Positions 5,877 to 30,567 of a DNA stretch of 64,000 nt are shown here, piece after piece; position 1 is the stretch's first letter; every line of letters starts with the position of its first letter. The notes beneath the pieces were generated by a model, which did no database searches, was not told where the DNA came from, and saw only the letters and a list, made by a program, of their open reading frames with translations. Made by a program: the position numbers and the translations under genes. Source of the DNA: Acidobacteriaceae bacterium (GTDB lineage: Bacteria; Acidobacteriota; Terriglobia; Terriglobales; Acidobacteriaceae); NCBI GenBank assembly GCA_027449965.1, contig DAIDKP010000025.1:1-64000 (forward strand). The letters run 5' to 3'.

Positions 5877-5931
5877 GTGTCCACCTTTCAAAAGCGGGAA
5901 TGAAAACTTGCAGAAATTGATGCGACTGGAT

Positions 5932-12111: not shown

Positions 12112-12432
12112 GTGCTCTCCCCGCAACAAGGTGGAGACTCCACCCAGCCGGAGCGGCTGAGCGGGTGGTTCTTCCACCACGCTTTGAAGATAGGAGCTTG
12201 CCTGTGGAATTGCAGTGACGGCTGTCACCTGAGGTTCATCTTCGCGAATCGTGCGCCTGCCGGACGGCGCGCACCCAGAACTGTGCATATCCAGAGCCGT
12301 GTGTACCCAGGACGAAGACCCGCGTCCGATCACGGCCAGAGCGATCACCCTCCTTCCGGATCGCTCATCCCTTCGATTGCGGATCCATGAACGAGGAGCA
12401 GCCCTTTCTCCTTGCTCGACCTCGAATCACGC
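12112..12432. other. Intergenic region before the decahaem operon
   Basis: About 320 bp between the 3' end of the ribulokinase gene and the cytochrome start. It holds the CRP-like dyad and -10 hexamer listed separately and a long leader of about 70 nt. No gene-like ORF: the apparent upstream extension of the cytochrome frame lacks a signal peptide and a ribosome site. No strong terminator is seen for the kinase. Confidence 0.6.
12187..12229 (-). promoter_or_regulatory. CRP-like dyad and -10 element of the decahaem operon
   Basis: The dyad CAGTGAC-GGCT-GTCACC spans 12213-12229 (plus strand), with perfect arms GTGAC/GTCAC and a 4-bp centre. On the minus strand TATCTT (12192-12187) is a 4/6 match to the -10 consensus. 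Its first base lies 29.5 bp from the dyad centre, putting the start of transcription near 12180 and the dyad at about -41.5, the class II activator position of CRP/FNR proteins. The same dyad with identical spacing precedes ric at 30551-30567. Confidence 0.65.
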
Positions 12433-14007
12433 TCAGCGAGCCTTGGCCGCAATCCGACGCAGCGCGGGCAGGATGCCACCCAGCGCTGCCGGTTGGCTTT
12501 TCGCGCTGCCCAGAGCAAAGTAGGCGCTGCGATAGAGCGCATACAACTCGTCGTAGACCGCCCTGGCCGTTGGCTCCGGATGCACCTCGCGCAGCGGCAG
12601 GCAGACGGCTTCCTGCGCTGCCTCAATCGACGGATACACCCCGGCCGCCAGCAGCGCGAAGATGCCCGAACCCAGGCTTGTCGGCACCCCCGCGGGCACC
12701 AGCACCGGCTTGCCCAGCACGTTGGCATACACCTGGTTCAGCACTTCATTCTTCTGCGGAATGCCGCCCGCATTGATGACGCGCGTCACCGGAACCCCAT
12801 GCTCGGCCATCCTCTCCAGAATGATCCGCGTATGCATCGCCGTGCCCTCAATCGCGGCAAACAGCTCATCCTGCGCGGTATGCAGCAGATTCCAGCCCAG
12901 CGTCACCCCGCCCAGCTCCGGATTCACCAGCACCGTCCGGTCGCCGTTGTCCCAGCTCAGCCGCAGCAGGCCCGTCTGCCCTGCGCGATACGCGCTCAAT
13001 CCCTCTGAAAGCGCAGCCACCGTCGATCCCGCGCGCCGTGCAATCGCTTCAAAGATGTCGCCCGTCGCCGAAAGTCCGGCCTCAATGCCCGTAAACTTCG
13101 GATGCACGCTGCCCGGCACCACGCCGCAGACACCCGGGACCAGCCGCGCCTCACGCGCCATCGCAATGATGCACGTCGAGGTGCCCACCACATTCACCAC
13201 ATCACCCTCGCGAATGTGCGAGCCAACCGCATCCCAGTGCGCGTCAAAGGCGCCCACCGGAATCGGAATCCCGGCATGAAGGCCCAGCGCCTCGGCCCAC
13301 TCCGCACTCAGGTGTCCCGCCACGCGATCCGAGGTCAGGAACTCTCCGGCCAGTTTCTCTCGCACCCCCGCCAGCAGCGGATCGACCGCGACCAGAAACT
13401 CCTCCGGCGGAAATCCTCCCCAGCGGGGATTCCACAGCCACTTGTGCCCCATCGCACAGACACTCCGCCGCACCCTGGCTGGCTCGGTCACGCCGCACAG
13501 CGTCGCGGCCACCATATCGCAGTGCTCCAACGCCGTTCCCAGCCGCGCGCGCTGCTCCGGATTGTGCCGCAGCCAGTGCAGCAGCTTGGCAAATCCCCAC
13601 TCATGCGAATAGACGCCGCCGCACCAGTCGATCGCCTCCAGCTTCATCGCGTGCGCCTTCGCGGTAATCTCCGCCGCCTCAGCGTGGGCGCGATGATCGC
13701 ACCACAGGTAGTAGTCGTCCAGCGGACGCATCTCGCCATCCACCACAATCACGCTTGACCCGGTCGTATCCAGTGCCAGCGCCGCCACACCTTCGCCGGC
13801 AATTCCTGTCTGCTCCAGCACGGCGCGCATTGCCCGCACCAGTGCGCGCATCTGCTCGTCGTGCGACTGCGTGGCAAAGTCCGGATCTTCACGGCGGCGG
13901 TGCAACGGATACTCCGACGAAGCCGTTCCAATCGGTCCACGCTCACTGTGTACCAGCGTCACGCGCACGCTCAGCGTGCCAAAGTCCACTCCAGCTACGA
14001 TGGGCAT
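12433..14007 (-). CDS. araB: Ribulokinase-type FGGY sugar kinase
   Basis: Phosphorylates a pentulose, probably L-ribulose, with ATP in L-arabinose catabolism. The start is set at ATG 14007 (ribosome site GAGGA five bases upstream), giving 524 aa starting MPIVAGVDFGTLSVR, which matches the N-terminal nucleotide fold of AraB. GTSTCIIAMA and NAGGIPQKN match the second FGGY domain. DAHWDAVGSH in the middle is also typical of ribulokinases. No araA or araD lies beside it, and the neighbouring cytochrome operon is unrelated. A ribitol or xylulose kinase is possible but less likely given the N-terminus. Divergent from rlmH. Confidence 0.85.
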   Translation of the reverse strand: MPIVAGVDFGTLSVRVTLVHSERGPIGTASSEYPLHRRREDPDFATQSHDEQMRALVRAMRAVLEQTGIAGEGVAALALDTTGSSVIVVDGEMRPLDDYYLWCDHRAHAEAAEITAKAHAMKLEAIDWCGGVYSHEWGFAKLLHWLRHNPEQRARLGTALEHCDMVAATLCGVTEPARVRRSVCAMGHKWLWNPRWGGFPPEEFLVAVDPLLAGVREKLAGEFLTSDRVAGHLSAEWAEALGLHAGIPIPVGAFDAHWDAVGSHIREGDVVNVVGTSTCIIAMAREARLVPGVCGVVPGSVHPKFTGIEAGLSATGDIFEAIARRAGSTVAALSEGLSAYRAGQTGLLRLSWDNGDRTVLVNPELGGVTLGWNLLHTAQDELFAAIEGTAMHTRIILERMAEHGVPVTRVINAGGIPQKNEVLNQVYANVLGKPVLVPAGVPTSLGSGIFALLAAGVYPSIEAAQEAVCLPLREVHPEPTARAVYDELYALYRSAYFALGSAKSQPAALGGILPALRRIAAKAR

Positions 14008-14141
14008 TCCATCCTCACGATCCGGTTCGCGCTTTTCCCGGTACAAAAACGATTCCGCACGCGATGAGCGCAGTCTATCGAATCGCAGCGCTCCATGTCT
14101 TCACAGACCCGGCAAGCCACGCGCCGTACACTGAGTCTGCC

Positions 14142-14600
14142 ATGCAGATCACCCTCGCCCACATTGGCGCGCGCACCCAGCGCACCGGAGCAAAGGCCGC
14201 GTTTGAGACGCTCACAGCCCTTTACGTCGAGCGCATCCAGCCCTACCACCCCGCGAGCACCCAGCTTTTCCGGACTGAGGATGAGCTTCTCGCCTGGTTT
14301 ACGCGCCAGCACGCCCGCTCCCCCGCCACACTTGCTTTGGCCGACAGTCGCGGGCGCACGTTCCGCTCCGAGCAGTTCGCCGCCTGGCTCGGTGCCCGGC
14401 GCGACTCCGGCGCGCAGCACCTCGTCTTCGCCATTGGGCCTCCCGACGGCTGGTCCGAAGCAGCACGCACCCAGGCCCAGCTTCAGCTCTCTTTTGGCGC
14501 CATCACAATGGCTCACGAACTCGCTCGGCTCGTGGCCGCCGAGCAGCTCTACCGCGCATGTACAATTCTGGCTGGACACCCCTATCACGGCGGCCACTGA
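14142..14600 (+). CDS. rlmH: 23S rRNA pseudouridine-1915 N3-methyltransferase RlmH
   Basis: SAM-dependent SPOUT methyltransferase that modifies pseudouridine 1915 in helix 69 of 23S rRNA. The ATG at 14142 gives 152 aa, the usual RlmH size; the frame is open further upstream but this start aligns with the family (MQITLAHIGAR). The knot region is visible as LVFAIGPPDGW (family pattern F-x-I-G-G-x-x-G), and the conserved end RACTILAGHPYH is the active-site tail. The second Gly of the GG motif is replaced by Pro. Followed by cobO 33 bp downstream, so possibly co-transcribed. Confidence 0.9.
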   Translation: MQITLAHIGARTQRTGAKAAFETLTALYVERIQPYHPASTQLFRTEDELLAWFTRQHARSPATLALADSRGRTFRSEQFAAWLGARRDSGAQHLVFAIGPPDGWSEAARTQAQLQLSFGAITMAHELARLVAAEQLYRACTILAGHPYHGGH

Positions 14601-14633
14601 AGTCAATCTCATCCAGCATCTTCTGATCGGATC

Positions 14634-15170
14634 ATGAGCGAATCTCGACAAGGTCTCATCCTCATTCACACCGGCCCCGGCAAAGGTAAAACCACGGCCG
14701 CTCTCGGCGTTGGCCTGCGCGCCGTCGGCCTGGGCATGCGCGTTCTCATGCTTCAGTTCCTCAAAGGCTCCTGGCACTACGGCGAACTCGACGGGGTCAA
14801 AGCCTTCGGAGACAACTTCGTCCTCAAGCAGCTTGGCCGAGGCTTCGTCAAAGTCGGCGGTGCGGAAACCGATCCGGAAGATATCCGCATGGTCGAGGCA
14901 GCCTGGGACGAAGCGCGCGCCGCCATTCTCTCCGGCGAATGGGATATCGTCATCCTCGACGAGATTAATTACGCCATCGGCTACGGCATGCTTGATCCCG
15001 CCCTCGTCGTCGAAGCGCTGCTCGCTCGCCCGGAGATGGTCCACGTCATCCTTACCGGGCGCAACGCCCACCCTTCGCTTGTCGAGATCGCAGACACCGT
15101 CACCGAGATGCGCGAGGTCAAGCACGCCTACCAGAAAGGCATTCTTGCCCAGCGCGGCATCGAATACTGA
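14634..15170 (+). CDS. cobO: Corrinoid adenosyltransferase CobO/BtuR type
   Basis: Transfers the adenosyl group of ATP to cob(I)alamin or cobyrinic acid a,c-diamide to form the coenzyme. 178 aa. Walker A loop at about 12-20 (HTGPGKGKTTAA), LMLQFLKGSWHYGEL in the middle, and Walker B-like IVILDEINYAIGYGM, all characteristic of the CobA/CobO/BtuR family rather than PduO. It lies in a loose plus-strand run rlmH-cobO-cupin-accD. No other cobalamin genes are near, so it probably serves salvage. Confidence 0.92.
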   Translation: MSESRQGLILIHTGPGKGKTTAALGVGLRAVGLGMRVLMLQFLKGSWHYGELDGVKAFGDNFVLKQLGRGFVKVGGAETDPEDIRMVEAAWDEARAAILSGEWDIVILDEINYAIGYGMLDPALVVEALLARPEMVHVILTGRNAHPSLVEIADTVTEMREVKHAYQKGILAQRGIEY

Positions 15171-15187
15171 AGATCAGGAGAAGGCAC

Positions 15188-15544
15188 ATGGACCAGGCAC
15201 AACACTACCGCTGGAGCGACCTGCCGCTCGAACCCATGAAGACCGGCATTGATCGCCACTTCGTCGTCGGCACCGATACCATGCTCGCTCGCATCCTGCT
15301 CGCAAAGGACGCGCACGTGCCTCGTCATAGCCATCCCAACGAACAGATCACCTACATCCTCTCCGGCGCGCTCCGTTTCGTCTTCGATGACCGTGAAGTT
15401 ACCGTTCGCGCCGGCGAAGTGCTTTGCATCCCGCCCAACCTTCCACACGAAGCCTTCGCCCTCGAAGACACCGTCGATCTCGACATCTTCCAGCCACCTC
15501 GCGCCGACTGGCTCAACGGAACCGACGCCTATCTGCGACGCTGA
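15188..15544 (+). CDS. Small cupin-domain protein
   Basis: 118 aa single cupin barrel. Motif 1 is visible as HVPRHSHPNEQITYILSG (His, His, Glu metal ligands) and motif 2 as VLCIPPNLPHEAFALED. Start ATG 15188 has a strong ribosome site (AGGAGAAGG). Such single-domain cupins bind a metal and can be enzymes or ligand sensors; nothing here fixes the substrate. Located between cobO (17 bp upstream) and accD (39 bp downstream). Confidence 0.85.
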   Translation: MDQAQHYRWSDLPLEPMKTGIDRHFVVGTDTMLARILLAKDAHVPRHSHPNEQITYILSGALRFVFDDREVTVRAGEVLCIPPNLPHEAFALEDTVDLDIFQPPRADWLNGTDAYLRR

Positions 15545-15583
15545 CGTCGGCCCGGGCCGTTCGTCCGGTACAATGGGTAGGTT

Positions 15584-16429
15584 ATGTCCTGGTTCAAGCG
15601 AGCAGATTCCAGCGTAGAGGGTGCGGCGGAAAGCGAAGAGTCACGCGTCCGCACGGAAGGTCTGTGGACCAAATGCGACGGCTGCCGCCAGATTCTCTTC
15701 AAGGCCGACATTCAAGCGAATCTGAACGTCTGTCCCAAGTGCGGCTACCACTTCAAGATGGGTGCGCGAGAGCGCATTGCCCATCTGCTGGAGCCGGGTT
15801 ACACCCTCGTCGATGGGAATCTTGAATCCACCGATCCGCTTCAGTTTGTCGATCGCAAGCCCTACCGTGAACGTCTCGCCGCTGCCCAGCATCAGACCGG
15901 CCTGCGCGACGCCATCGTCAACGCCGTTGGACACATCGGCCCGCATCCGGTCGTCGTCAGCGCCATGGAATACAGCTTCATCGGCGGCAGCATGGGCGCG
16001 GTTGTGGGTGAGACCATCGCCCGCGCCATCGACCGCTGCCTGGAGACGCGCAGCGCGCTCATCATTCTTGCCGCTTCCGGCGGCGCGCGCATGATGGAGG
16101 GCGTTGTCAGCCTCATGCAACTGGCCAAGATCGCCACCGGCCTGGCGCAAATGGACGACCTGGGCCTGCCTTACCTCTGCGTGCTCACCGACCCGACCAC
16201 CGGCGGCGTCACCGCCAGCTTTGCCATGCTCGGCGACCTCAACATCGCTGAACCTGGCGCGCTCATCGGCTTCGCCGGACCGCGCGTCATCGAGCAGACC
16301 ATCCGCCAGAAGCTCCCCGAAGGCTTCCAGCGCTCAGAGTTCCTGCTCGAACATGGCTTCCTCGACGCCGTCGTTCCACGCGCCGAACTCAAAGGTTACA
16401 TCGCCCGCGCCCTGGACTTCATGCGCTGA
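15584..16429 (+). CDS. accD: Acetyl-CoA carboxylase carboxyltransferase subunit beta
   Basis: Beta subunit of the carboxyltransferase that moves CO2 from biotin to acetyl-CoA, the first step of fatty-acid synthesis. 281 aa, normal for AccD. The N-terminal zinc ribbon has four cysteines in the pairs CDGC and CPKCGYHF (about residues 31-53). The crotonase-like core contains SALIILAASGGARMMEG and PTTGGVTASFA, the acyl-CoA oxyanion loops. Its last 11 bp overlap the 3' end of the convergent glycosyltransferase gene. The alpha subunit gene is not in the window. Confidence 0.96.
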   Translation: MSWFKRADSSVEGAAESEESRVRTEGLWTKCDGCRQILFKADIQANLNVCPKCGYHFKMGARERIAHLLEPGYTLVDGNLESTDPLQFVDRKPYRERLAAAQHQTGLRDAIVNAVGHIGPHPVVVSAMEYSFIGGSMGAVVGETIARAIDRCLETRSALIILAASGGARMMEGVVSLMQLAKIATGLAQMDDLGLPYLCVLTDPTTGGVTASFAMLGDLNIAEPGALIGFAGPRVIEQTIRQKLPEGFQRSEFLLEHGFLDAVVPRAELKGYIARALDFMR

Positions 16430-17681
16430 GCCGCGCCGTCGCTTCGCTCACCGGCATCGCTTCCACACGGTTCCCCGCTTCCCCTCGCAGCGCATCGCCG
16501 TAGCCCTCATACACGCCCTCGAAGACCGCATCCCAGGTGGCTGTCAGCGCAAACCTGCGCGCATTGGCCCGCATCACCGCCAGCCGCTCCGGACCTTCCA
16601 CCAGCGCTTCAACCGCCGCTGCAAATTCCGCATCCGGCGCAATGCATCCCACCGGTCCTCCCACTACACGCGCTGCCTCGCGCACAATCGTCGCCGGGCC
16701 GCCATCCGGCGTCACAACCGTCGGCACTCCTGAGGCCAACGCCTCCAGCACCACATTGCCAAAGGTATCGGTATGCGACGGAAATACAAACAGGTCCATC
16801 GCCGCGTATGCTGCCGCCAGCGCCTCACCGCGCAACACGCCGGCAAACTCCGAATCCGGCATCCGTTCGCGCAGCATCGCCTCTTCGCTTCCCTGGCCCA
16901 CCACCACAAACCGAATATCCCGCAGCCCGGCTGCATGAAGCTGATCGTGAATCGCCGCCAGCAACGCCACGTTTTTCTCCACCGACAGCCGACCCACAAA
17001 CCCCAGCGTGAAAGCTTCCGACTGGCGCCGCCGCCGCGCCGGAGTGAACAGGCTCGTATCCACGCCGCGCGGCATACGATGGCATGGTCGTCCGGTCAGC
17101 CCGGTCAACTGCTCACACAGCGCCTCGCTCGGCGCGAACAGCACCTGCGCCCGTGCATACAATTGCGCAGTCGCCGCCAGCGTCCACTCTTCCACCATGC
17201 GGCTCGCCGTGCGCGGCTGCTCGCCTGGCAACAGCTTAAATAGCCACTCCGATCGCCGCGCCAGATACTCGTGCACATTCGTGTGCCAGCTTGCCGCCAA
17301 CGGCAAACCATGCTGCGCGGCCACCGCCGCGCCCAGCATTCCCAGTTCGCTCGGCCCGGTGATGTGGACCAGCGTTGGCGCAAACTCTTCCAGCACGTCG
17401 CCAATCGCCGGAATGTGGCGAGCATACGCCGGATCGAAGCTCAGATCTTTCTCCAGTGCAAATGAAAGCACCCCGCGCGGCAGCTCCAGAGTCCACACAT
17501 TGCCTTCTCGCCGCAGCGCCGGGCTGCGCTCCCCGGCTCGCACACACAGAAACGGCAGATTTCGCCTTCGCGCAAAGGCTTCAAAGTGGCGACTGGTATG
17601 CGCCACTCCATTCACCTCATGAAACGAATCAGGGAAATACGCCACGCGCGGCAACTGCGCGGTGAGGGAGAGAGAAGACAT
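16419..17681 (-). CDS. GT4-family glycosyltransferase
   Basis: 420 aa GT-B glycosyltransferase. The N-terminal acceptor domain begins VAYFPDSFHEVNGVAHTSR, a pattern seen in GT4 mannosyl/glucosyltransferases acting on lipids (MgtA, SQD2-like). The donor domain contains LGFVGRLSVEKNV, VVVGQGSEE and the SHTDTFGNVVLEALASGVP loop, where the first Glu of the usual EX7E motif is Asp. Start ATG 17681 has ribosome site AGGAGTC. Third in a minus-strand series LOG-PHP-GT separated by 34 and 120 bp. Probably makes a glycolipid or glycan; substrate unknown. Confidence 0.88.
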   Translation of the reverse strand: MSSLSLTAQLPRVAYFPDSFHEVNGVAHTSRHFEAFARRRNLPFLCVRAGERSPALRREGNVWTLELPRGVLSFALEKDLSFDPAYARHIPAIGDVLEEFAPTLVHITGPSELGMLGAAVAAQHGLPLAASWHTNVHEYLARRSEWLFKLLPGEQPRTASRMVEEWTLAATAQLYARAQVLFAPSEALCEQLTGLTGRPCHRMPRGVDTSLFTPARRRRQSEAFTLGFVGRLSVEKNVALLAAIHDQLHAAGLRDIRFVVVGQGSEEAMLRERMPDSEFAGVLRGEALAAAYAAMDLFVFPSHTDTFGNVVLEALASGVPTVVTPDGGPATIVREAARVVGGPVGCIAPDAEFAAAVEALVEGPERLAVMRANARRFALTATWDAVFEGVYEGYGDALRGEAGNRVEAMPVSEATARLSA

Positions 17682-17801
17682 TGCGGACTCCTGATGGCTG
17701 CAAACAGGCGCACAAACCCTGCGCCCCTGCGGTTCGGGCCTTGGTGGATACTTCCCGGATACTTCCCTGACCAGAGATTGCTGTTTCTCCGCGACGGCTT
17801 C

Positions 17802-19133
17802 TTAGGCCGTCTCGCGCTCGCCCAGTTCAAAGCGCAGCTCGTCGGCATCACTCCACGCATAGCGCAGACTCGAGCTGAGCGGACGCCGACCCAGCGACCG
17901 TGCCGTTGCCAGAATCATCCGCATCGAGCGCGGTGCCTGACCCCGCGGCCAGATCGCGCTCAACGGGCGAATCTCGCCGCTGGCATCCGGATGAAAGACG
18001 CGATCATCCCAGCACTGCGAACCCAGGGGAAACTCTGGAAAATCCCGTATCGCATCGATCGTCGATTGCAGAATGCGCATCTTCCACGGCTCAGCATACT
18101 GCGGCATGAAGAGCACCTCGCTGCGCCGCTCGTAGCGCACCTCGTGCACAAACTCCGTGAAGCTGCTCGCATTCGTCAGGTTGATGTTCGCGTTCGCTTC
18201 CACGCCATGCCGGTCGCCGCCCGCCACCAGCAGCATATTCCACTGCTCGGCCAGCCGCCGCGCCGCGCGATTCTCCGCCCAGTTCCGCAGCCCGTTCAGC
18301 TCCAGTGCGTGAAAATAGTTGCCGTACTTCAGCAGAAACTCATTCGCCAGAAAGTTATGGCGATCCCGCCCGATCAGATACAAATCCCACATCGGATGGT
18401 TCAACACCACCAGCACATCGCGTTCCTGATTCAGTTCCGCCAGAATCTCGCCCAGTTGTTCGTCCGCCGGATTCGCCGTAAACGCGTTCAACCTGGCAAT
18501 CCACTCCGCCGCTCGCGCACTTGGCAGATTATGCACACCGATGTGAAACGACTGCACCTCACTATAGGGTGCCGACCACTCGACCGAGATCGGCACATGC
18601 TGCGAACGGTCCATCGTCCGCAACATCAACGGTGCGCGAATGTCGTCATGATCCGTGATGGAGACCAGCGAGCGCAGCCCCAGCTTTTCGATCTGGCCGC
18701 TTTCCAGATCCCACGCCAGCTTGGGCGTCAGCGGCGGCGTCCAGTAGCTGCGCAGCCAGTCAATGCGGATGCCATGACGATCCCACGATCGCCGATCCAG
18801 ATATCGCATCAGCGGACGCACAAACCCATATTGCGCCGTCCAGTCCGCCACAAAGGAAAGCGTCTCCTGCGACTGGTTCGTGTGGCTGTGCAGCGAAACG
18901 CCTGTTGAGTATTTTTCAACGGGGCGAGGGTCGCGCCAAAGATATGAGATCGAGGTTGATGGCATAGGGTCGGTCGTCCTCCTGATCCGCTCAATCTGCG
19001 GTTTCAGTATCGCCGTCCACTCATCAACAGACCGTGAAAACCCCGCGAATTTCCGTTCAATCGCAGCGTTTCTCCGGACTTTAGCCGGACTAAGTACGTA
19101 TTTTTCGGGTCTCTCCGACATTCTGACACTCAC
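17802..19133 (-). CDS. PHP-domain metal-dependent hydrolase
   Basis: 443 aa. PHP signatures are present: GVSLHSHTNQSQE (metal His-x-His), SITDHDDI (T/S-D-H-D), LNHPMWD and AGGDRHG near the end, giving the set of His/Asp ligands of polymerase-and-histidinol-phosphatase-like phosphoesterases. Substrate is unknown. The start is uncertain: GTG 19133 is the longest, ATG 19121 and ATG 18965 are alternatives, the last placing the PHP motifs close to the N-terminus. It follows the LOG gene by 34 bp, suggesting an operon of nucleotide/phosphate hydrolases with the downstream glycosyltransferase. Confidence 0.8.
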   Translation of the reverse strand: MSVRMSERPEKYVLSPAKVRRNAAIERKFAGFSRSVDEWTAILKPQIERIRRTTDPMPSTSISYLWRDPRPVEKYSTGVSLHSHTNQSQETLSFVADWTAQYGFVRPLMRYLDRRSWDRHGIRIDWLRSYWTPPLTPKLAWDLESGQIEKLGLRSLVSITDHDDIRAPLMLRTMDRSQHVPISVEWSAPYSEVQSFHIGVHNLPSARAAEWIARLNAFTANPADEQLGEILAELNQERDVLVVLNHPMWDLYLIGRDRHNFLANEFLLKYGNYFHALELNGLRNWAENRAARRLAEQWNMLLVAGGDRHGVEANANINLTNASSFTEFVHEVRYERRSEVLFMPQYAEPWKMRILQSTIDAIRDFPEFPLGSQCWDDRVFHPDASGEIRPLSAIWPRGQAPRSMRMILATARSLGRRPLSSSLRYAWSDADELRFELGERETA

Positions 19134-19167
19134 AACTTCCCAGCCTGCGACCGAGTCCTATCGTCCA

Positions 19168-20139
19168 CTATACGTTGGTTTTGGCAAATTCCGGACCAAG
19201 AAATGCTTCGATTTGGATGGCCGGTTCTGCCGAAGCAACAGGCTCTGCTGAAAGATGATTTGCCGTCAACCCATCCCGCAGCATCGCAAACGCCTCTTCT
19301 GGCGTATCGGCAAACTGGAAAAGCTCGACATCCCTTGGCGAAATCGATCCGCAATCGACCAGGGCATTCAGGTTGATCACACGCTTCCAGTACTCTGACC
19401 CATAGATCACCACCGTCATCTTTTTGGCCAGTTTGTGGGTCTGCGACAGCGTCAACAGCTCAAACATCTCGTCCAGCGTCCCAAATCCACCGGGAAAGAC
19501 CACCAGCGCCTTCGCCAGATAGGCAAACCACAGCTTCCGCATGAAGAAGTAGTGAAACTCGAAGTTCAGCTCCGGGGTAATATACGGGTTCGGATGCTGC
19601 TCAAACGGCAGCCGGATATTCAGCCCAATCGACTTGCCACCCGCCTCATACGCGCCGCGATTGGCTGCTTCCATAATCCCCGGTCCACCGCCTGAGGTAA
19701 TCACAAACCGATGCCTTCCCGGTGGATTCGACGGCACCGTCGCGGCCCATCGCGTCACCATCCCGGCCAGTCTGCGCGCATCTTCGTAGTAACGCGCCAT
19801 CTCCACCGCCGCCACGGCCCGGTGCCGCTGCAATTCGCTCGCGGAACCTTCTTCAATTGACAGGGCTGTCGCCGGCTGCTCTTCCGGCGGAGCCAGTTGC
19901 GCCGAGCCGGTATTGTCCAGCAGCTCCAGCGCCCGGTCTGCCTCCGCGCGGCTGTGGAATCGCGCCGAACCAAAGAAAACAATCGTGTCCTGAATCCGTT
20001 CTCGACGAAATCGCGCCAGCGGCTCCGTATACTCGGCCAGAATTCGAATCAGCCGACCCTCCGGGCTATTCACAAACTCCGGATTTTCATAGGCCAGCGG
20101 CGCCCGTTCCAGTGGCGTCGGCTGTTGCTGCTCTGCCAT
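19168..20139 (-). CDS. LOG-family nucleotide phosphoribohydrolase
   Basis: 323 aa Rossmann-fold protein of the LOG/TIGR00730 family, which cleaves the N-glycosidic bond of nucleoside 5'-monophosphates (first known from cytokinin activation). Both motifs are clear: SGGGPGIMEAANRGA and PGGFGTLDEMFE. It is longer than minimal LOG proteins by an N-terminal extension (about residues 1-50) and a linker at about 75-105 rich in Glu/Pro. ATG 20139 has ribosome site GGAG. First gene of the run with the PHP protein and glycosyltransferase. Confidence 0.9.
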   Translation of the reverse strand: MAEQQQPTPLERAPLAYENPEFVNSPEGRLIRILAEYTEPLARFRRERIQDTIVFFGSARFHSRAEADRALELLDNTGSAQLAPPEEQPATALSIEEGSASELQRHRAVAAVEMARYYEDARRLAGMVTRWAATVPSNPPGRHRFVITSGGGPGIMEAANRGAYEAGGKSIGLNIRLPFEQHPNPYITPELNFEFHYFFMRKLWFAYLAKALVVFPGGFGTLDEMFELLTLSQTHKLAKKMTVVIYGSEYWKRVINLNALVDCGSISPRDVELFQFADTPEEAFAMLRDGLTANHLSAEPVASAEPAIQIEAFLGPEFAKTNV

Positions 20140-20238
20140 TCTTCGGCTCCATTTCCAGGTTGTTCGTGCGGAGTCGCAGCTCGAACCGATGCGACAGAAT
20201 AGTCTACCCGTTCCAGCACACCTTCGGCGACCTCTCCG

Positions 20239-20577: not shown

Positions 20578-20653
20578 TGGTTGCCCTGCGAACCGAGTGC
20601 GTCTCTCTGGAACGTACCACAATCGAACGCCCCTCAGACTCGCGCGACTCTTC

Positions 20654-23429: not shown

Positions 23430-23460
23430 CCCCTGCGCAACTCCCCCGGCAAGCGAAAAA

Positions 23461-23491
23461 AGGCCGGATGGAGCAACGCTCCACCCGGCCT
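23461..23491 (-). terminator. Terminator between msrA and the TonB-dependent receptor
   Basis: 14-position stem (23461-23474 with 23478-23491) broken by one A-C mismatch, three-base loop. The plus-strand run of A just before it (23455-23460) gives a T tract on the minus strand, so it mainly terminates the receptor transcript; it may also stop msrA. Confidence 0.8.
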
Positions 23492-23508
23492 GAAAACCTT
23501 CTGGAAGG

Positions 23509-26500
23509 TCAGAAGATGAACTTTGCCGCCAGTTGCACTTCGCGGCCCGTGTTTGACTGCGAGTTGATCTGACCAAAGGTGCCGTCGTTCACGCCTGCAT
23601 CCGGCCCATTGAAGATGGGGTGGTTGAACGCGTTGAAAGCCTCCAGCCGAAGCTGCACATTGAATCGCTCGTTCGGCCCGAAGTAGTTGTTCTTGAACGC
23701 CGACAAATCAGCATCCACATAGCCCGGCACACGCACATTGGGCAGCACGCGCGGAGCGTTGCCAATCGTGAACGGCGCCGGCTGGGAGAACAGGCTGGTG
23801 TTGAACCACTTCTGGCGTGTCGGATGCGAGATATTCGGGTCACCCGGCGCCTCGTTCGGTCGCTGGCCAAATCCCAGCAACCCGGTCTCGTTGTTCACCG
23901 CGCCCAGCACCACGGGCGTTCCAGTATCCCACTGCACGATGCCGTTGGTCTGCCATCCGCTCACCAGCGCATTCACCAGCGTACTGCCATGGTTCAGGAA
24001 CATCTTTCCGCGGCCAAACGGCAGGTCATACACATATCCGGCCACAAAGGTCCGCGAAATATCCTGTGAAGACAAACCAAACTCGGCCTTGGGGTTGTAC
24101 TGGTTAGCGTACGTCTGACTCGTTGGTCCCAGGTAGCTGACGACGCTGGCTGCGTTATCCATGAGCTTCGAACCGGTGAAGGCGATCAGCAGCGAGAAAC
24201 CGTTGCTGTAACGCTTGTCCACCTTGACGGTGATTGCGTTGTAGTGCGAGCCGGAATCTGCCTTGCGATAGCTGGAGACGCCGTTATATTGCGGGTAGGG
24301 CCGCAGCAGATAGTCATACGGAACCGTCTGCGACGTAAACGGCGAGCCAGGCGTCGTAATCACTCCGTAGAATGGGTTCGGCGCACTGGCCAGCAGCTTG
24401 TTGCCCAGGCTCAGATACGACGGATCCACCTGAGAAAACGGCACACCCGGGTCGCCGTTGATCAGGAAGTGACCAGCGTTATAGATGTAGCCGACTTCGA
24501 CCACCGTGCTGGGCGTAATCGACCGCTGGACATTCAGATTGCCTTCAATCGAGTACGGATTCCGATAGGTATCAAAGAACGTATCGGCGATGCCAAGCCC
24601 CAGAAAGGTGTTCGGACCACCCGCCACACCCTGCGGCAGATTGAATCCACCGGGGGCGGGATTGTCAAAGGTTGTTGCAACCGTCTGCTGATTATTCAAC
24701 GTAAAATTGAAGCCCGTTTGGCTGGTGAAGCCATCCGTACCCGCTCCGCCTGTCGTGCCGGCGGCCTGCATCTCCGACGGCTGGAAGATAATCCCGTAGC
24801 CGCCGCGTACCACCGTTTTGGTATCCGGACTCCAGGCAAATCCAACACGCGGCGCAAAATCCTTCCATTGCGTCGGTCCCTGATGCCGTCCATACTTGCT
24901 CTCTGGCGTACCCACAAAGACCATCTGGCCCACCAAGTCACCACAGTGCAAACAGGCATTCGAGGGAATCTGTGCCGCTATGGGGGAGGGCAGACTGTTA
25001 TCCCAGTAATCCAGCCGGTTGTGTCGTTCCGTGCGCGGAATATCCACATCCCAGCGCAGGCCAAGGTTAAACGTCAGATTCGGCGCCGCCTGATAATCAT
25101 CCTGAATGTAGGCCGCGGCGTATGCGCTGGAGGTGGCCAGTGAGATGTCGTGGGTGATCTGGCCATAATCGGAAAGACCCAGCAACATCGTCGCAAACGA
25201 GTCGCCCGACCCGTCAAAGTTGTTGACCGTCTTCTCCGTCCAGTCCTGCCCGATGCCGCCGAACTGACCCGACGGGTAACCATACTGATAGAAGTTCAGA
25301 AAGAGCTTACGCCACTCGCCACCCACCGTGATCGAGTTGCCCTTGTACACCTTCACGATGCTGGGATCGATATCGACCGCCGACGGATCTTCCTGCAGCG
25401 GCACATAACCACCCGAACCCACTCCTGAGTAGCCCTGATTCAACTGAAACTGCGGAAAGACATTCGGTTCGCGATCCGCCACCGTCAGATACGAGTTGGG
25501 AAATTTCAGACTCGCCAGATCAAACGGCTGGCCGAAGGTGGCGCGCACATAGGTCGAGCGGCTGAACCCGCCGCGCAGATCCAGAATCAACGAGGGCGAA
25601 AGCGTGATCGAGTTATCGATCGAAGCACTGTACGCCGTCGAAATCGATGGGCCGCCATAACCCTGCGATGCTGCACTGTTGTAGTCGCTGAACGGAGTGT
25701 TCGGATTGTTGATATGCGAGAAGCGCACAAAGCTGTGATCTCGCGTACCAAAGTCGTGATCCAGCCGCAGATCAAAGTGATAGTAGTTGTTCACCGACGT
25801 ACCATTCGCCGTGTAGTTGTTGAACTGCGCCCCGGCAGGCCCCGTATTGGGCATGGGGTAATACTGAATCGCCGCCGACGCCACCTGACTGATCATGCCC
25901 ATGGGGATTTTGTTGCCCGGAAACGCCTGACGCACATACGTGCCATCCGGTTGCAGCGTTGCCGAATAAGGGTTGTAGATTACCGTGCTCAACGCGGAAA
26001 AATCTCCGGTCCGTTCCGCCGCCGTTGGCACCGAATCCAGCTCAGTCTGCGCCACCGAATTCTTCGAGTCTTCAAAGGCAAAGAAGAAGAAGCTCTTGTT
26101 GTGCCCATCGTACACATGCGGAATCCAGATCGGACCGCCGATCACGCCACCGTACTGATACAAGTGCGAACTCGGCACCGGACCCGAGGAGAAATACGGC
26201 TTGGCATACAGCGCATTGGTCTGCGTGAAATCAAACAGGCTGCCGTGGAAATCGTTCGTTCCAGATCGCGTTACCAGGCTGATGACGCCGCCGGAGAACC
26301 GACCGTATTGCGCTGGCAGCACACTCGTCTGCACGTTGAACTCCTGCACCGAATCCACAATAGGCGTGTACGCTGTCGAGTTGTTGCCCACGTTGTTCTC
26401 CGGCAGGATGTTGGTCATGCCGTCGATCTGCTCTTCGTTGTTCGCATTGCGCGAGCCGGCGATATGCGGCGTCGACGCGTTGCCCGTCGTGTTCACGCCC

Positions 26501-26970
26501 GGCACCAACACCTCAAGCGAAGTGGGATTGCGCCCATTCAACGGCAGGTCCAGAATCGTCCGCCCGGGAATCACCGTGTTCAAACTCGACGAGTCCACCT
26601 CGAGCGGAGGCGTCGTACTGTCCACCTCCACCTGCTGCGTCACCTTGCTGACCGGCATTCGAAAATCAATCGGTGTGCCCACAGAGATTCGGATGATGAT
26701 ATGGTCCTGCTTCACCGATTCAAATCCCGAAGCCGTCGCCACAGCCGTGTACTCCGAAGGCTGGACAAAGTTGAAGATATAGCGACCCTGAGAGTCGGAG
26801 GTCGTCGTTCGCACCTCGTTCGTCGGCACATTGGTGATGGTGATCGTCGCACCCGCGATAGCTGCGCCGGATGTGTCCAGGACCGTGCCGCGGATGGTAC
26901 CGGTTGGGCTTTGCGCAATCGCCGTCAGTGTCAGGCAAAGCATCGTTATGGCTAGCAAAATTCGTTTCAT
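23509..26970 (-). CDS. Oar-like TonB-dependent outer-membrane receptor with carboxypeptidase-regulatory domain
   Basis: Large outer-membrane transporter, 1153 aa from ATG 26970 (ribosome site GGAGG). Signal peptide residues 1-19 (ILLAITMLCLTLTAIAQ), a carboxypeptidase-regulatory/Ig-like domain (GTIRGTVLDTSGAAIAGATI), a plug domain with LPLNGRNPTSLE and SGGVISLVTRSGTNDFHG, and a 22-strand barrel ending in Phe (VQLAAKFIF). Acidobacteria carry many of these Oar-like receptors, thought to import plant or microbial polysaccharide fragments. Unlike SusC it has no SusD partner nearby. A LacI regulator is divergent, and a LacI-type operator lies 90 bp upstream of this gene, so carbohydrate-dependent control is likely. 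Confidence 0.93.
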   Translation of the reverse strand: MKRILLAITMLCLTLTAIAQSPTGTIRGTVLDTSGAAIAGATITITNVPTNEVRTTTSDSQGRYIFNFVQPSEYTAVATASGFESVKQDHIIIRISVGTPIDFRMPVSKVTQQVEVDSTTPPLEVDSSSLNTVIPGRTILDLPLNGRNPTSLEVLVPGVNTTGNASTPHIAGSRNANNEEQIDGMTNILPENNVGNNSTAYTPIVDSVQEFNVQTSVLPAQYGRFSGGVISLVTRSGTNDFHGSLFDFTQTNALYAKPYFSSGPVPSSHLYQYGGVIGGPIWIPHVYDGHNKSFFFFAFEDSKNSVAQTELDSVPTAAERTGDFSALSTVIYNPYSATLQPDGTYVRQAFPGNKIPMGMISQVASAAIQYYPMPNTGPAGAQFNNYTANGTSVNNYYHFDLRLDHDFGTRDHSFVRFSHINNPNTPFSDYNSAASQGYGGPSISTAYSASIDNSITLSPSLILDLRGGFSRSTYVRATFGQPFDLASLKFPNSYLTVADREPNVFPQFQLNQGYSGVGSGGYVPLQEDPSAVDIDPSIVKVYKGNSITVGGEWRKLFLNFYQYGYPSGQFGGIGQDWTEKTVNNFDGSGDSFATMLLGLSDYGQITHDISLATSSAYAAAYIQDDYQAAPNLTFNLGLRWDVDIPRTERHNRLDYWDNSLPSPIAAQIPSNACLHCGDLVGQMVFVGTPESKYGRHQGPTQWKDFAPRVGFAWSPDTKTVVRGGYGIIFQPSEMQAAGTTGGAGTDGFTSQTGFNFTLNNQQTVATTFDNPAPGGFNLPQGVAGGPNTFLGLGIADTFFDTYRNPYSIEGNLNVQRSITPSTVVEVGYIYNAGHFLINGDPGVPFSQVDPSYLSLGNKLLASAPNPFYGVITTPGSPFTSQTVPYDYLLRPYPQYNGVSSYRKADSGSHYNAITVKVDKRYSNGFSLLIAFTGSKLMDNAASVVSYLGPTSQTYANQYNPKAEFGLSSQDISRTFVAGYVYDLPFGRGKMFLNHGSTLVNALVSGWQTNGIVQWDTGTPVVLGAVNNETGLLGFGQRPNEAPGDPNISHPTRQKWFNTSLFSQPAPFTIGNAPRVLPNVRVPGYVDADLSAFKNNYFGPNERFNVQLRLEAFNAFNHPIFNGPDAGVNDGTFGQINSQSNTGREVQLAAKFIF

Positions 26971-27059
26971 AGGAGCCTCCACAAAAAGCACTCAAGATCT
27001 GCACTGCACCCGCAACCATCACTTCCTCAGGTGCAAACTCTGAGTACGCTGATACATAT

Positions 27060-27073
27060 TGATATCGTTATCA
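27060..27073. promoter_or_regulatory. LacI-family operator near the receptor gene
   Basis: TGATATCGTTATCA, arms TGATA/TATCA around a central CG step, which is the classic form of LacI/GalR operators. It lies 90 bp upstream of the receptor start, so it could sit within or just upstream of its promoter. Confidence 0.7.
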
Positions 27074-27271
27074 GTCCGACATGTTATAGCTGAGTTTTTC
27101 CATCTCTGTCAATCTTTTTTTCGCGCCTCCACCTTTTGCGGATCAGGAAATCTGCGCGATATCACTACATCATTCTTATTAATAAAGACTTACATCGCTA
27201 CATTCGAATGGTATTTCACGGTGCTTTCACGTCCCCAATGCAGGAGCCAAGCGCGCATGATTACGTCACTG

Positions 27272-27285
27272 TGATATCGTTCTCA
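27272..27285. promoter_or_regulatory. LacI-family operator near the regulator gene
   Basis: TGATATCGTTCTCA differs from the other operator at one of 14 positions and lies 70 bp before the regulator start. Two sites 212 bp apart would allow autoregulation and DNA looping by a tetramer, or independent control of both genes. Confidence 0.65.
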
Positions 27286-27354
27286 GAACTGCTGCTCCAG
27301 CCTGGTGGCGTTTCAAATTGATTCCACCATTTCGCTCCGGGCAGGTTAGTATAG

Positions 27355-28407
27355 ATGCGAATGTCCATCCGCTCACGTTCCGTCGTCACCATCGCCGATG
27401 TGGCTCGCGCCTGCGGTGTCGGCACCATGACGGTCTCTCGCGTCATCAACGGAAAGAAGCATGTCAGCCCCGAGATGATCCAGCGTGTCGAAGAAGCCAT
27501 TGCGCGGCTGAACTATCAGCCCAACGAAGCGGCACGCACGCTCAAAGGCCGCACGTCCAGAACCATCGGGCTGATCGTGCCCAGTCTCAGCGACCCCTTC
27601 TTTTCCCAGTGCGCGCACGCCGTGCAGCAGGTCGCTGCCGAGCAGGGCTACATGACCATGCTCTTCGCCTGCGAGGCCAATCGCAACGTCGAGGCCGAAG
27701 AGCTCTCGCAGATGCGCTCCCGCAACATCGCCGGCATTCTGATCGTGCCTTCCAGCGAGAACTCCCTCGAACAGCTACAGGAGTTGCGTCGTAACGGAAT
27801 GCCGGTCGTCATGATCGACCGCACGTTTGCCGGCATTGATGTCGGCGAAGTCATGGTGGAGAACGTTGAAGGCGCTTGGCGCGCCACCAATCACCTCATC
27901 GACCACGGCCATCAACGCATCCTCTGCGTGGGCTACGACCGCGAGTACAACTCGATCAGCCAGCGCATTGACGGCTTCAAAAAAGCGATGCAGGATGCCG
28001 GTTTGCAGCCGCAGCATCTGCTCGTCAATCGCGGCGTAGCCATTGGCCCCAAAGTGATCGCCGCGCTCCGCTCTCCCAAACCGCCGACCGCCATCTTCGC
28101 CCTCAACAACGTCACCTCGGTTGCCGTGCTAACGACTTTGAAACGGGAAGAGATTCGGATTCCGCAGCAGGTCGCCATCATCGGCTTCGACGATTTTGAC
28201 CTGGCCTCCCTGCTGGCGGTTCCGCTCACCGCAGTTCGCCAGCCGGCAGCTGAGCTGGGCCGCCACGCAACCCGGATGCTCATTGACAGCCTGCGTGTAG
28301 GCAATGGCACAGGACGCATGCCTTCCCGCATCGTCTTGCCCACGGAGCTGATTGTCCGACAGTCCTGCGGCTGCGAGCCAATCTCCCGCATATCGCACCC
28401 CAGGTGA
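27355..28407 (+). CDS. LacI/GalR-family transcriptional regulator
   Basis: 350 aa. N-terminal helix-turn-helix and hinge (VTIADVARACGVGTMTVSRVIN, then ALRT-like ARTLKGRTSRTIGLIVPSL), followed by a periplasmic-binding-protein-like sensor domain with MIDR, VEGAWRATNHLIDHGH and IIGFDDFDLASLLAVPLTAV. It probably represses the divergent Oar-like receptor until a sugar ligand binds. ATG 27355 is used; ATG 27361 is an equally possible start. The Gly-Cys-Gly-Cys-like end (SCGCEP) is common in this family. Confidence 0.95.
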   Translation: MRMSIRSRSVVTIADVARACGVGTMTVSRVINGKKHVSPEMIQRVEEAIARLNYQPNEAARTLKGRTSRTIGLIVPSLSDPFFSQCAHAVQQVAAEQGYMTMLFACEANRNVEAEELSQMRSRNIAGILIVPSSENSLEQLQELRRNGMPVVMIDRTFAGIDVGEVMVENVEGAWRATNHLIDHGHQRILCVGYDREYNSISQRIDGFKKAMQDAGLQPQHLLVNRGVAIGPKVIAALRSPKPPTAIFALNNVTSVAVLTTLKREEIRIPQQVAIIGFDDFDLASLLAVPLTAVRQPAAELGRHATRMLIDSLRVGNGTGRMPSRIVLPTELIVRQSCGCEPISRISHPR

Positions 28408-28425
28408 ATCCTCCAGGTAGCCTCA

Positions 28426-29745
28426 TCACACTGTCTGTTTTGACAGGTGCGCAGGCGGTTGCAGCAGAGTTGCAAAAAGGTTCAGCGCAAAGACGGAGAC
28501 CGCTGCAAGCTCAATGAATGCTGAGAGCGGCAAAAGCCGCCACGCCGACGACCACAGATGCTCATAGGCCAGCGGCTCCATCGTCACGCGCAACGCGCAA
28601 CCCACCTCCAGCAGTACCACCGATGCCGTCATCAGCCTCGAACTCCAAAGCACACGCATTCCGCAGAACGCAGGCAGGATGCGCGGACCAATGGCAAAGA
28701 CCATTCCCGCAACAAACCCCACCGTCAGTGCATGACGGCTCGCGCCCCAGATGCCTCCGGATCGATCCTGCACTACGGCCAGCGCGTTCAGCAGACAGGA
28801 GATCACAAGCCACGCATACGCCCATCGGATAAAGTGTGGAAACCCTGCGGAGATGCCCTGCAACCTGGCCGGTTGCACCGCAGCATCCCATACACGAAGA
28901 GCGTCAATCGAGAGAACCGCAGCCGTCAGCAGCAAGCACGCCGAGATTCCCAGCCACGGCAGAAATGTCGCCAGAATACCCGCCGCGACCAGCACGCAGG
29001 CTATCCTCAGCTCGCGTCCATTGGCCTGGTCAAACCCTGCAAAGATCGGTAACCAGCGCGCATTGAATCCCCAGATGGTGGGAACCAGAACGCCCCACAC
29101 CACCAGTACCACAAGCTGTTGATCCAGCACGTGCGGCAATGCCGGCACGGAGGCGGTCAGCGCCACTCGACCCAACACCACAAGCTGCGCCGCAAGCACC
29201 ACAAACAGCATCGCCGTTCCAAAAACCACCGCCATCATCCACGCGGGCATCGCGGCAGACTCGACTTCGGAAGCCGCCGGGCGATGTCGGCGAACCGCTC
29301 GCCAGAAGATCAGAAATCCGATCAGTTGCAGCAGCGCTCCCAACGGCAGCAGCACTCTCCAGTGCCAACCCGTGATTCCACCCAGCCAGCGAAGCAAAAC
29401 GCCGCCCGTCCATGCCCACCAGGTCAGCCACCCGGAGACCACCGGAAATCCGCGCTGGCTTTTCATCTTCGTCAGAGAATAGTAGCCGATTCCCAGGATG
29501 AAGGAGCCGACCCAGCCAAAGATCTGCGCCTGACCATGCGCCTGAATCCAGGCCGGCGCAATGGTCACAAGCGTCTGTTCCCGCGCGATTCCGATCAGAT
29601 TCCACACGCCCAGAAACGTCCCCGGCAACAGCAGAAAAAGCAGTCCTGACACCGTAAACGCAATCACCAGTCGCTGACTTGCCGATTCCGCCGTCGCGCC
29701 CGTGATCGGCGCTGTTTCTCGTTGCGAAATTTCTGCCGCTTTCAT
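28426..29745 (-). CDS. NnrS-family haem-copper membrane protein
   Basis: NnrS proteins are multi-span haem- and copper-containing membrane proteins that protect cells from nitric oxide and nitrosative damage. 439 aa from ATG 29745, with about twelve hydrophobic segments; HGQAQIFGWVGSFILGIGYY carries the conserved His and Gln of the family, and further His lie in HWRVLL, ALPHVL and ASRHALTVGF. The ATG overlaps the ric stop by four bases (ATGA), so the two are translationally coupled. The product would act in the same nitrosative-stress pathway as Ric. A longer N-terminus (to 29868) would run into ric and is rejected. Confidence 0.87.
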   Translation of the reverse strand: MKAAEISQRETAPITGATAESASQRLVIAFTVSGLLFLLLPGTFLGVWNLIGIAREQTLVTIAPAWIQAHGQAQIFGWVGSFILGIGYYSLTKMKSQRGFPVVSGWLTWWAWTGGVLLRWLGGITGWHWRVLLPLGALLQLIGFLIFWRAVRRHRPAASEVESAAMPAWMMAVVFGTAMLFVVLAAQLVVLGRVALTASVPALPHVLDQQLVVLVVWGVLVPTIWGFNARWLPIFAGFDQANGRELRIACVLVAAGILATFLPWLGISACLLLTAAVLSIDALRVWDAAVQPARLQGISAGFPHFIRWAYAWLVISCLLNALAVVQDRSGGIWGASRHALTVGFVAGMVFAIGPRILPAFCGMRVLWSSRLMTASVVLLEVGCALRVTMEPLAYEHLWSSAWRLLPLSAFIELAAVSVFALNLFATLLQPPAHLSKQTV

Positions 29746-30500
29746 GCCGCTCCTTCTACGCGTTGCTGAGCGCGTGGAAACAGAATGTTGTTTTCCAGAT
29801 GAATATGCTGATGCAGGTCGCGTTCCAGTTCCGAAATCGCGCGATACAGTGCGCGCCAACTGAAACATGCCTCTTCCGGTGGTTGCAAATCGTTCGTCAA
29901 CGCGCGCAACGCCCGCAGTTCCTCGCCCGTCTGGTCGTGGTCGCGAAGCATCCTCTCCATCGGCTGGCGAATATCGCCAAAGAGTGGCGGAAACAGGGGT
30001 GAGTGCCCCGCATCCAGACGCAGAATCGCCGGGAAGAGAATATTTTCTTCACAGGCAAAGTGATGTGCCAGCTCTGCGCCCAGCGCGCTCAGCCGCTCGG
30101 CAATCACTGGCAGGTCGAGATATTTCGCCCCGTGTCGCTTCGCCACTTTCTCCGCCAGTGGCAGAATCATCTCCATCTGCTTCCGTGCAAAGGCATGATG
30201 ATGCTCCACCACATAACGAATCAGATCCGGGAGCGGCGCCGTGCTCCACGATTCCTGCGCTGGCGCCTGTTGCTGCCGCAGGCCAGCCAGCGCTTCCAGA
30301 ACAGCGGCAATCTCCAGCCCTTTCGCGTCACACGCGGCGGCCAGTGAACGCGCTCCGCCGCAGCAATAGTCGATCCCAAGCTTCTCCAGCAGCGGAATGG
30401 CGCTCGGCGTTTCCAGCACGATCTCTCGCACCTGGGTTTCTGCGGTCAGCTTTTCTCGTGGAATCTCTTGTATCGATGCATCCTGCAATGGAATGGACAT
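29742..30500 (-). CDS. ric: Iron-sulfur cluster repair di-iron protein RIC (ScdA/YtfE)
   Basis: Repairs Fe-S centres damaged by nitric oxide or peroxide. 252 aa from ATG 30500 (ribosome site AGGAGG). The N-terminal ScdA domain has GIDYCCGGARSLAAA, the Cys pair typical of the family. The C-terminal hemerythrin-like domain supplies His/Glu ligands in VEHHHAFAR, LAHHFACEENILFP, LRDHDQTGEE and HIHLENNILFPRA. First gene of a ric-nnrS operon. A CRP-like dyad is centred 41.5 bp before its predicted transcription start and the Crp/Fnr gene is divergent, so activation by that regulator is likely. Confidence 0.95.
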   Translation of the reverse strand: MSIPLQDASIQEIPREKLTAETQVREIVLETPSAIPLLEKLGIDYCCGGARSLAAACDAKGLEIAAVLEALAGLRQQQAPAQESWSTAPLPDLIRYVVEHHHAFARKQMEMILPLAEKVAKRHGAKYLDLPVIAERLSALGAELAHHFACEENILFPAILRLDAGHSPLFPPLFGDIRQPMERMLRDHDQTGEELRALRALTNDLQPPEEACFSWRALYRAISELERDLHQHIHLENNILFPRAQQRVEGAA

Positions 30501-30524
30501 ATTGGAACCTCCTGTATCACACCG

Positions 30525-30567
30525 ATGGTAGGCTGAAGAAACACCGAAGACAGTGACTTGAGTCACC
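30525..30567. promoter_or_regulatory. CRP-like dyad and -10 element in the ric / Crp-Fnr divergent promoter
   Basis: Dyad CAGTGAC-TTGA-GTCACC at 30551-30567. For ric (minus strand) the -10-like TACCAT at 30530-30525 starts 29.5 bp from the dyad centre, giving class II geometry at about -41.5. The arms and outer bases are the same as in the dyad upstream of the decahaem operon (13 of 17 positions, all but the centre). Confidence 0.72.

Follow-up and report, generated by a model that had tools for sequence, protein, structure and literature searches.

We describe two operators for Crp/Fnr-family transcription factors in a stretch of 64,000 nt (the window) from the 3.24-Mb genome of an Acidobacteriaceae bacterium (G000). 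One lies before mtrA and the other genes of a putative MtrAB-type outer-membrane electron conduit, the other before ric and nnrS, in the intergenic region common with a crp gene. We favour, with slightly more confidence than doubt, a reading in which two paralogous Crp/Fnr activators use one frame, GTGAY-N4-RTCAC, an FNR-type protein (P0007) acting at mtrA and the product of the crp gene (P0006) acting at ric-nnrS. The frame is proposed to be shared because both paralogues carry an R-E-x-x-x-R recognition helix. The operators and their -10-like hexamers are as follows.

12213..12229, minus strand: operator before the electron-conduit genes, mtrA (FNR-type) subclass; core GTGACAGCCGTCAC on the minus strand at 12215-12228; leave-one-out log-odds -3.8
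12187..12192, minus strand (reads 12192-12187): -10-like hexamer TATCTT, starting 29.5 bp from the dyad centre
30551..30567, minus strand: operator before ric-nnrS, in the intergenic region common with crp, A/T-spacer subclass; core GTGACTCAAGTCAC on the minus strand at 30553-30566; log-odds +7.9
30525..30530, minus strand (reads 30530-30525): -10-like hexamer TACCAT, pointing to ric, starting 29.5 bp from the dyad centre

The initial annotation of this DNA had reported CAGTGAC-N4-GTCACC at both places, each 29.5 bp from a -10-like hexamer. Both observations hold: the two copies are exact, the window contains no other exact copy, and the distances agree. The outer 13 bases are the same at both sites, and the flank bases of the mtrA site (G...T) are those of ric sites. 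Allowing up to two mismatches gives four matches in the window, one of them the second site read on its opposite strand. Shuffled sequence leads one to expect 1.58 +/- 1.36, and 8 of 100 shuffles reach four, so that by itself the loose motif has no significance in the window. The distance from dyad to hexamer predicts an operator centred at about -41.5 or -42.5, the class II position, and both sites look like functional Crp/Fnr activator sites.

Conservation in related genomes, a check named beforehand, supports this. In a family set of 120 genomes an mtrA match is present in 91, and we read the best 30 of these 91 loci, one per genome. GTGA-N6-TCAC lies within 350 bp before the mtrA match in 24 of the 30 loci, and is missing in L086, L088, L093, L106, L108 and L111. 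When all 4-base inverted repeats with spacers of 0-12 are ranked, this repeat comes first (24), then its shifted forms, and the best unrelated repeat reaches 4/30. The ric upstream regions were taken from loci found via P0006 relatives (L018-L047, L144-L223). Among 57 distinct readable ones, 36 carry [GA]TGAY-N4-RTCA[CT] within 300 bp before ric, with a mean spacer A/T content of 3.67 of 4. The ric site is kept in both arrangements, with ric divergent from crp and with ric downstream of crp (e.g. L032, L040, L044), and is also found in L206, which is titled candidate division FCPU426. The class II geometry that had been predicted for the window recurs in these sets: of the 24 mtrA sites, 18 have TANNNT at one of two distances (29.5 bp in 6, 30.5 bp in 12; 31.5 bp in 2, elsewhere 0 or 1), as do 32 of the 36 ric sites.

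The 4-base spacers of the window sites differ, reading AGCC (mtrA) and TCAA (ric) towards the genes, and this difference is systematic across the site sets. We compared the 24 mtrA sites with 21 ric-crp sites, namely the window's and 20 taken from the 24 named loci that have one; the other four, L165, L171, L200 and L221, were left out (no divergent ric, or site distant). Spacer A/T averages 3.57 of 4 for ric against 1.38 for mtrA (Mann-Whitney p 2e-7), and T/A flank bases average 0.14 of 2 against 1.33 (p 3e-7), the mtrA sites favouring TGTGA/TCACA; these p values, like all others here, are optimistic because the sequences are kin, which counts against our reading. Leave-one-out classification is correct for 19/21 ric and 23/24 mtrA sites.

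Two proteins in the genome match the Crp helix-turn-helix (HTH) family, P0006 (30615-31343) and P0007 (C16:122427-123140). Both belong to the CRP/FNR superfamily, with PF00027 and PF13545 above cut-off. P0006 had been noted for a recognition helix of the GTGA type, and the alignment agrees: its R193-E194-x-x-x-R198 falls on R180-E181-x-x-x-R185 of E. coli CRP and is invariant in 10/10 aligned orthologues. The helix of P0007, R-E-[TS]-[VI]-T-R, is kept in 30/30 homologues, as are C14, C17 and C26; Cys113 is present in 20/30, and the NCBIfam Fnr model scores 58 bits against a cut-off of 228. PDB entries for FNR are among the matches of P0007 (8qto, 5cvr), the best matches being other Crp/Fnr-family entries. 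In the portion of PMC1274295 used here, R180 and E181 correlate with site positions G3 and A6, so P0006 and P0007 should both read GTGA. The helix argument therefore cannot tell the two proteins apart.

Neither protein looks like CRP sensu stricto. In E. coli CRP, R82 is the arginine that binds the phosphate of cyclic AMP (cAMP); the aligned position holds Pro or Tyr in P0006 and His in P0007. The NCBIfam CRP model gives 60 and 53 bits for P0006 and P0007, against a cut-off of 266. cAMP was considered as the signal and is unlikely, there being no Arg at the R82 position in either protein.

P0006 is linked to ric by position. Genes for ric lie near P0006-type genes in 26/30 family loci, in 20/24 named loci at 46% identity or more, and in 40/76 named loci overall. 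The nearest named relatives of P0006 are from the Acidobacteria metagenome-assembled genomes JA6.bin33 (94%) and LL6.bin61 (75%), codes which we take to denote acid mine drainage, and the nearest with a species name is from Paracidobacterium acidisoli (56%). Within the genus (15 genomes compared), strict sites upstream of crp are present in 5/5 loci whose P0006 identity is at least 57% and absent in 5/5 at 34-42%; ric beside crp was found in only three of these last five. Those three, G124, G126 and G129 (P0006 relatives of 35-38%), carry A/T-spacer sites with one mismatch upstream of ric, and a -10 follows at 29.5-30.5 bp. We therefore dropped the notion that, within the genus, a close P0006 orthologue is needed for a ric site to be present, as 3/3 distant loci with ric keep such a site.

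P0007 is the regulator that accompanies the mtrA site. The 24 family genomes with this site include 18 with a P0006 relative (threshold E 1e-35) and six without (G064, G011, G080, G054, G047, G091), and all 24 have a P0007 relative (E 1e-40 or better). Genes of the P0007 type are common (101/120 family genomes), so this dissociation excludes P0006 as a general mtrA regulator better than it proves P0007. Among the matches listed, a P0007-type gene lies within 15 kb of mtrA in at least 21 of 67 genomes, and within 3 kb in at least 13. In the genus the mtrA site is present in G000, G128, G123, G044, G127, G126, G124, G130 and G122, standing 349-367 bp before the mtrA match in G124 and G126, and was not found in G120, G129, G102 or G125. 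In G122 a divergent P0007-type gene adjoins mtrA, and no P0006-like match in that genome surpasses it; in G120 the P0006-like gene is itself the only match of the P0007 type. Two members were left out: G121, with a weak mtrA match only, and G131, dropped as a clean case since its only mtrA homologue is shortened (match from residue 137) and lies in a frame that extends upstream of the site. Across the 120 genomes, site density per Mb rises with the count of P0007 matches (rho 0.65, against 0.003 for the control; relatedness uncorrected).

A common frame and a common R-E-x-x-x-R would also suit a fully overlapping network, in which both regulators act at both operators and oxygen and nitric oxide (NO) signals merge. 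The window mtrA site, with its ric-like flanks and moderate score of -3.8, fits such a network. The two site sets separate well, however, and we regard full overlap as unlikely. We think it unlikely, too, that P0007 serves both sites while P0006 only autoregulates or acts elsewhere. The helix type is the same, a P0007-type gene of at least 52% identity accompanies the mtrA site in all genus members read, FNR-type genes stand in the island that holds ric (described below), and genomes with weaker P0006 relatives retain the near-site before ric. Yet the ric operators make up an A/T-spacer subclass of their own, found with ric wherever a P0006-like gene adjoins.

The initial annotation had inferred a single regulator for both sites, and this is not supported by the two site subclasses, nor by the six mtrA-site genomes without a P0006 relative, set beside P0007 in 24/24. 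In its specific form, P0006 alone would bind both sites and couple the conduit to nitrosative or respiratory stress. The identical outer bases and -10 distance speak for this, as do the GTGA-type helix, the P0006-like genes found in an island with mtrAB in five selected genera, and those that stand at the end of mtrAB clusters elsewhere (e.g. L191, L197, L217). In these last three clusters no site was found before mtrA, however, the operator before mtrA is of a different subclass, and the site occurs in G122 as well as in the six genomes; we consider P0006 alone quite unlikely.

A genome-wide scan had been another check named beforehand, and it shows that strict sites are mostly intergenic, many of them beside haem, cytochrome, iron and respiratory genes. 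The exact core GTGAC-N4-GTCAC occurs at four places in the genome, two being the window sites, and the reversed-pattern control at two. This is no excess over the control, so the positions, not the count, carry weight. All four are intergenic. One precedes mtrA (12215) and one lies in the ric-crp interval (30553); the third (L001) is flanked by mutS and by a cytochrome-assembly gene with a hemA-like gene after it (mutS and hemA identified by eye), and the fourth (L002) by cydA and a radical-SAM gene of a haem-type family. The wider frame GTGAY-N4-RTCAC occurs at 16 places in G000, 12 of them intergenic (10/14 by the gene caller, two by hand). Near-miss controls, 11 one-mismatch places with readable loci out of 94, are intergenic in one case. 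The binomial p for 12/16 is 1e-8 to 4e-5 at non-coding fractions of 12 to 25%; by the gene caller this fraction is 13% in the window and 18% in the other loci read. This caller is a simple codon model that missed a gene at 5979-6395, the second mtrA in L054 and probably a second FNR-type gene in L297. Its call for ric also runs too far, to 31121, and would enclose the second operator within that gene; both window sites were placed by hand.

The 12 intergenic sites neighbour feoB/proline dehydrogenase, an iron-sulphur (Fe-S) biosynthesis gene, ccsA-hemA, cydA/radical SAM, cydB/Usp, a gene with no family match but with a cytochrome-like CxxCH, a second decahaem gene of the mtrA type (flanked by sites on both sides), a cyclic-nucleotide-binding (cNMP) domain protein without HTH, purC, and the window's two units. 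In the congener G044, 10 of 15 sites adjoin the same kinds of gene (one falling on the first codon of a called gene), one precedes ccmE, one precedes another gene and three lie within genes. A spacer with three or more A/T is found in 3 of the 16 G000 sites: the ric site, one inside a gene (L053) and L054:3319. Scanning with one mismatch added noise, with 98 places in G000 against 131 in the control. That both operators are chance palindromes without function could draw on this result, on the core count of 4 against 2 and on the non-significant two-mismatch count in the window, but conservation at 24/30 and 36/57 promoters with a fixed -10 distance, together with the intergenic bias, leads us to reject it.

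Some of these neighbours deserve separate mention. The second mtrA-type decahaem gene (C23:48185-49078 in G000; L054, L237; 47% identity) has its own site, with the -10-like TACTCT at 29.5 bp. The cNMP-domain protein without an HTH match (L056:1638-2135 on C26 of G000; L065 in G044) follows a site in both congeners, and the translation of the gene next to it resembles L-serine dehydratase. The purC-adjacent site, present in two congeners (L057, L061), is an odd member for a respiratory regulon.

Several observations weigh against the assignment of P0007 to mtrA and P0006 to ric that we favour. The strict site is missing in 21/57 ric upstream regions, and two ric sites and one mtrA site classify the opposite way. 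The ric site fails to part P0006 from P0007, G124, G126 and G129 also holding P0007-type genes. Five of the six family genomes whose mtrA lacks a site hold a P0007 relative (only G070 is without one), and within the genus no mtrA site accompanies the P0007-type genes of G102, G129 and G125 (53, 53 and 70%). A median of 5.3 sites per Mb is found even in genomes that lack both regulators, and beside it the G000 total, 4.9 per Mb, is not elevated. Such genomes also exceed the reversed control, so this control is not neutral, and the excess of the motif over its reversed pattern is weakened as proof of a regulon. Finally, oxygen sensing by P0007 is uncertain: the fourth FNR cysteine is replaced in 10/30 homologues, and the CxxC-x8-C arrangement differs from the cysteine spacing of E. 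coli FNR.

From the sites, their conservation and geometry, the two subclasses, co-occurrence and gene context we infer binding partners, signals and activation as follows. The mtrA operator, of the TGTGAY-N4-RTCACA type, would belong to the regulon of P0007, whose gene lies outside the window. At low oxygen, while the presumed Fe-S cluster is intact, P0007 would bind at about -41.5 and activate the conduit, and at other sites it would activate haem and cytochrome maturation, cydAB, feoB and Fe-S genes. The A/T-spacer operator between ric and crp would belong to P0006, a local activator of ric-nnrS that may respond to NO or nitrosative stress and probably also autoregulates. On this reading some cross-binding may still occur at the window mtrA site, given its ric-type flank bases.

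Parts of this arrangement have precedents. Like FNR, a [4Fe-4S] sensor of oxygen, P0007 has CxxC-x8-C and Cys113, and its predicted sites lie beside cyd, haem, cytochrome and feo genes. FNR recognizes TTGAT; unlike FNR, P0007 has a GTGA helix and a different cysteine spacing. FNR-like proteins with CRP-like sites have a precedent in Thermoanaerobacter crp2, an orthologue of B. subtilis fnr that adjoins a CRP-like site according to the portion of PMC1274295 used here. The same portion places dnrN (= ric/ytfE) and nnrS among the targets of the CRP/FNR-family regulators HcpR, DNR and NnrR, and gives the Desulfovibrio HcpR motif as wTGTGAnnnnnnTCACAw, with R180 correlated with G3. P0006 resembles these regulators in adjoining ric and nnrS and in its matching GTGA and Arg, and its operator differs from that HcpR motif in a near-invariant A/T spacer and rare outer T/A (PMC1274295, in part). 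In Shewanella oneidensis, the consulted part of PMC4417206 describes direct control of omcA and mtrCAB by cAMP-CRP from class I sites at -61.5 and -60.5. Here, too, a GTGA-type CRP-family regulator is predicted at an Mtr outer-membrane conduit; unlike the S. oneidensis case as described there, the predicted position is -41.5/-42.5 (class II) and P0006 and P0007 have no Arg aligned with R82. Searches of the open-access PMC literature listed no title or abstract opening that describes an acidobacterial regulon of this kind (subscription papers were outside the search). What emerges is a testable regulon for switching the outer-membrane conduits of Acidobacteriota, with two site classes, two candidate regulators and a defined -10 spacing, and a case of paralogous Crp/Fnr proteins with a common half-site that may be parted by spacer sequence.

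The genes concerned in the window are the following.

11131..12111, minus strand: mtrA-like decahaem cytochrome c (DmsE family); TIGR03508, E 2.4e-75, above cut-off
8725..11121, minus strand: putative MtrB/PioB-like outer-membrane porin, assigned from position; homologues of 26-29% adjoin mtrA in L191, L197, L212 and L217
8259..8606, minus strand: small cytochrome c; PF13442, E 2.7e-15
6798..8228, minus strand: NapC/NirT-type multihaem cytochrome, start perhaps 8195; PF03264, E 3e-7, above cut-off
29742..30500, minus strand: ric, ytfE/scdA-type di-iron Fe-S cluster repair protein; TIGR03652, E 6.1e-67, above cut-off
28426..29745, minus strand: NnrS-like membrane protein; PF00115, E 1.3e-6, below cut-off; the homologue L296:16450-17778 matches PF05940 NnrS
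30615..31343, plus strand: Crp/Fnr regulator P0006, ric-linked and cysteine-free, recognition helix VREVVTR; PF00027 and PF13545 above cut-off

The putative MtrAB-type conduit is represented by a decahaem protein of the MtrA/DmsE type (TIGR03508) and an adjoining putative porin that had no match in family searches, as was also the case for the L296 porin and one L299 porin.

The initial annotation had also proposed that outer-membrane electron transfer is coupled to nitrosative or respiratory stress. Part of this stands, in that conduit and NO-repair genes share an island in four of five selected genera; neither the common single regulator nor the closeness of the two operators, 18 kb apart in the window, is supported as its basis. 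Proximity was dropped as evidence because in G044 mtrA is separated from the ric-crp genes by about 182 kb of the same contig. The island was read in stretches L296-L300, from five genera, picked for closeness of P0006-like and mtrA genes; family searches covered the L296 genes and one L299 porin, and other genes were read from translations and earlier matches. The order begins with FNR-type genes, called as a pair in every stretch but L297, which has one, and continues with mtrA, a gene for a porin-like protein, multihaem cytochromes, a NapC-type cytochrome, radical SAM and a P0006-like crp. In four stretches ric follows crp, so that mtrAB, FNR-type genes, crp and ric stand together in 4/5 of the genera; ric was not found in L297. 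An NnrS-like and a NorB-like gene come after ric in L296, L298 and L299. Family matches in L296 include NorB, NnrS, Rieske, cytochrome b and Ric, with an AhbD-like radical SAM below cut-off. Sites precede several island units, and those before ric in L296, L298, L299 and L300 have A/T-rich spacers. A link between the two modules would accordingly consist in the common island and operator frame; one shared protein is not supported.

We tentatively suggest, while doubting it somewhat more than we believe it, that an ancestral acidobacterial island of 15-20 kb had FNR-like regulators of CRP specificity driving MtrAB and a sister NO-type regulator driving ric-nnrS-norB, parted mainly by the spacer, and that the window represents this island broken up with its code kept. 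If true, NO repair would be a built-in companion of outer-membrane electron export.

Three further features were seen. The window also encodes (3-5891), downstream of the conduit genes and in their orientation, an efflux system of the resistance-nodulation-division (RND) type with outer-membrane factor, permease and adaptor. In L191, L197 and L217, the P0006-like crp gene ends same-strand clusters of mtrAB-like and multihaem cytochrome genes. Conserved tandem sites, exactly 22 bp apart, precede the radical-SAM gene in four island genera (L296:13277/13299, L297:15649/15671, L298:6307/6329, L299:5094/5116), and in each pair one site has a -10-like hexamer at 29.5 or 30.5 bp.

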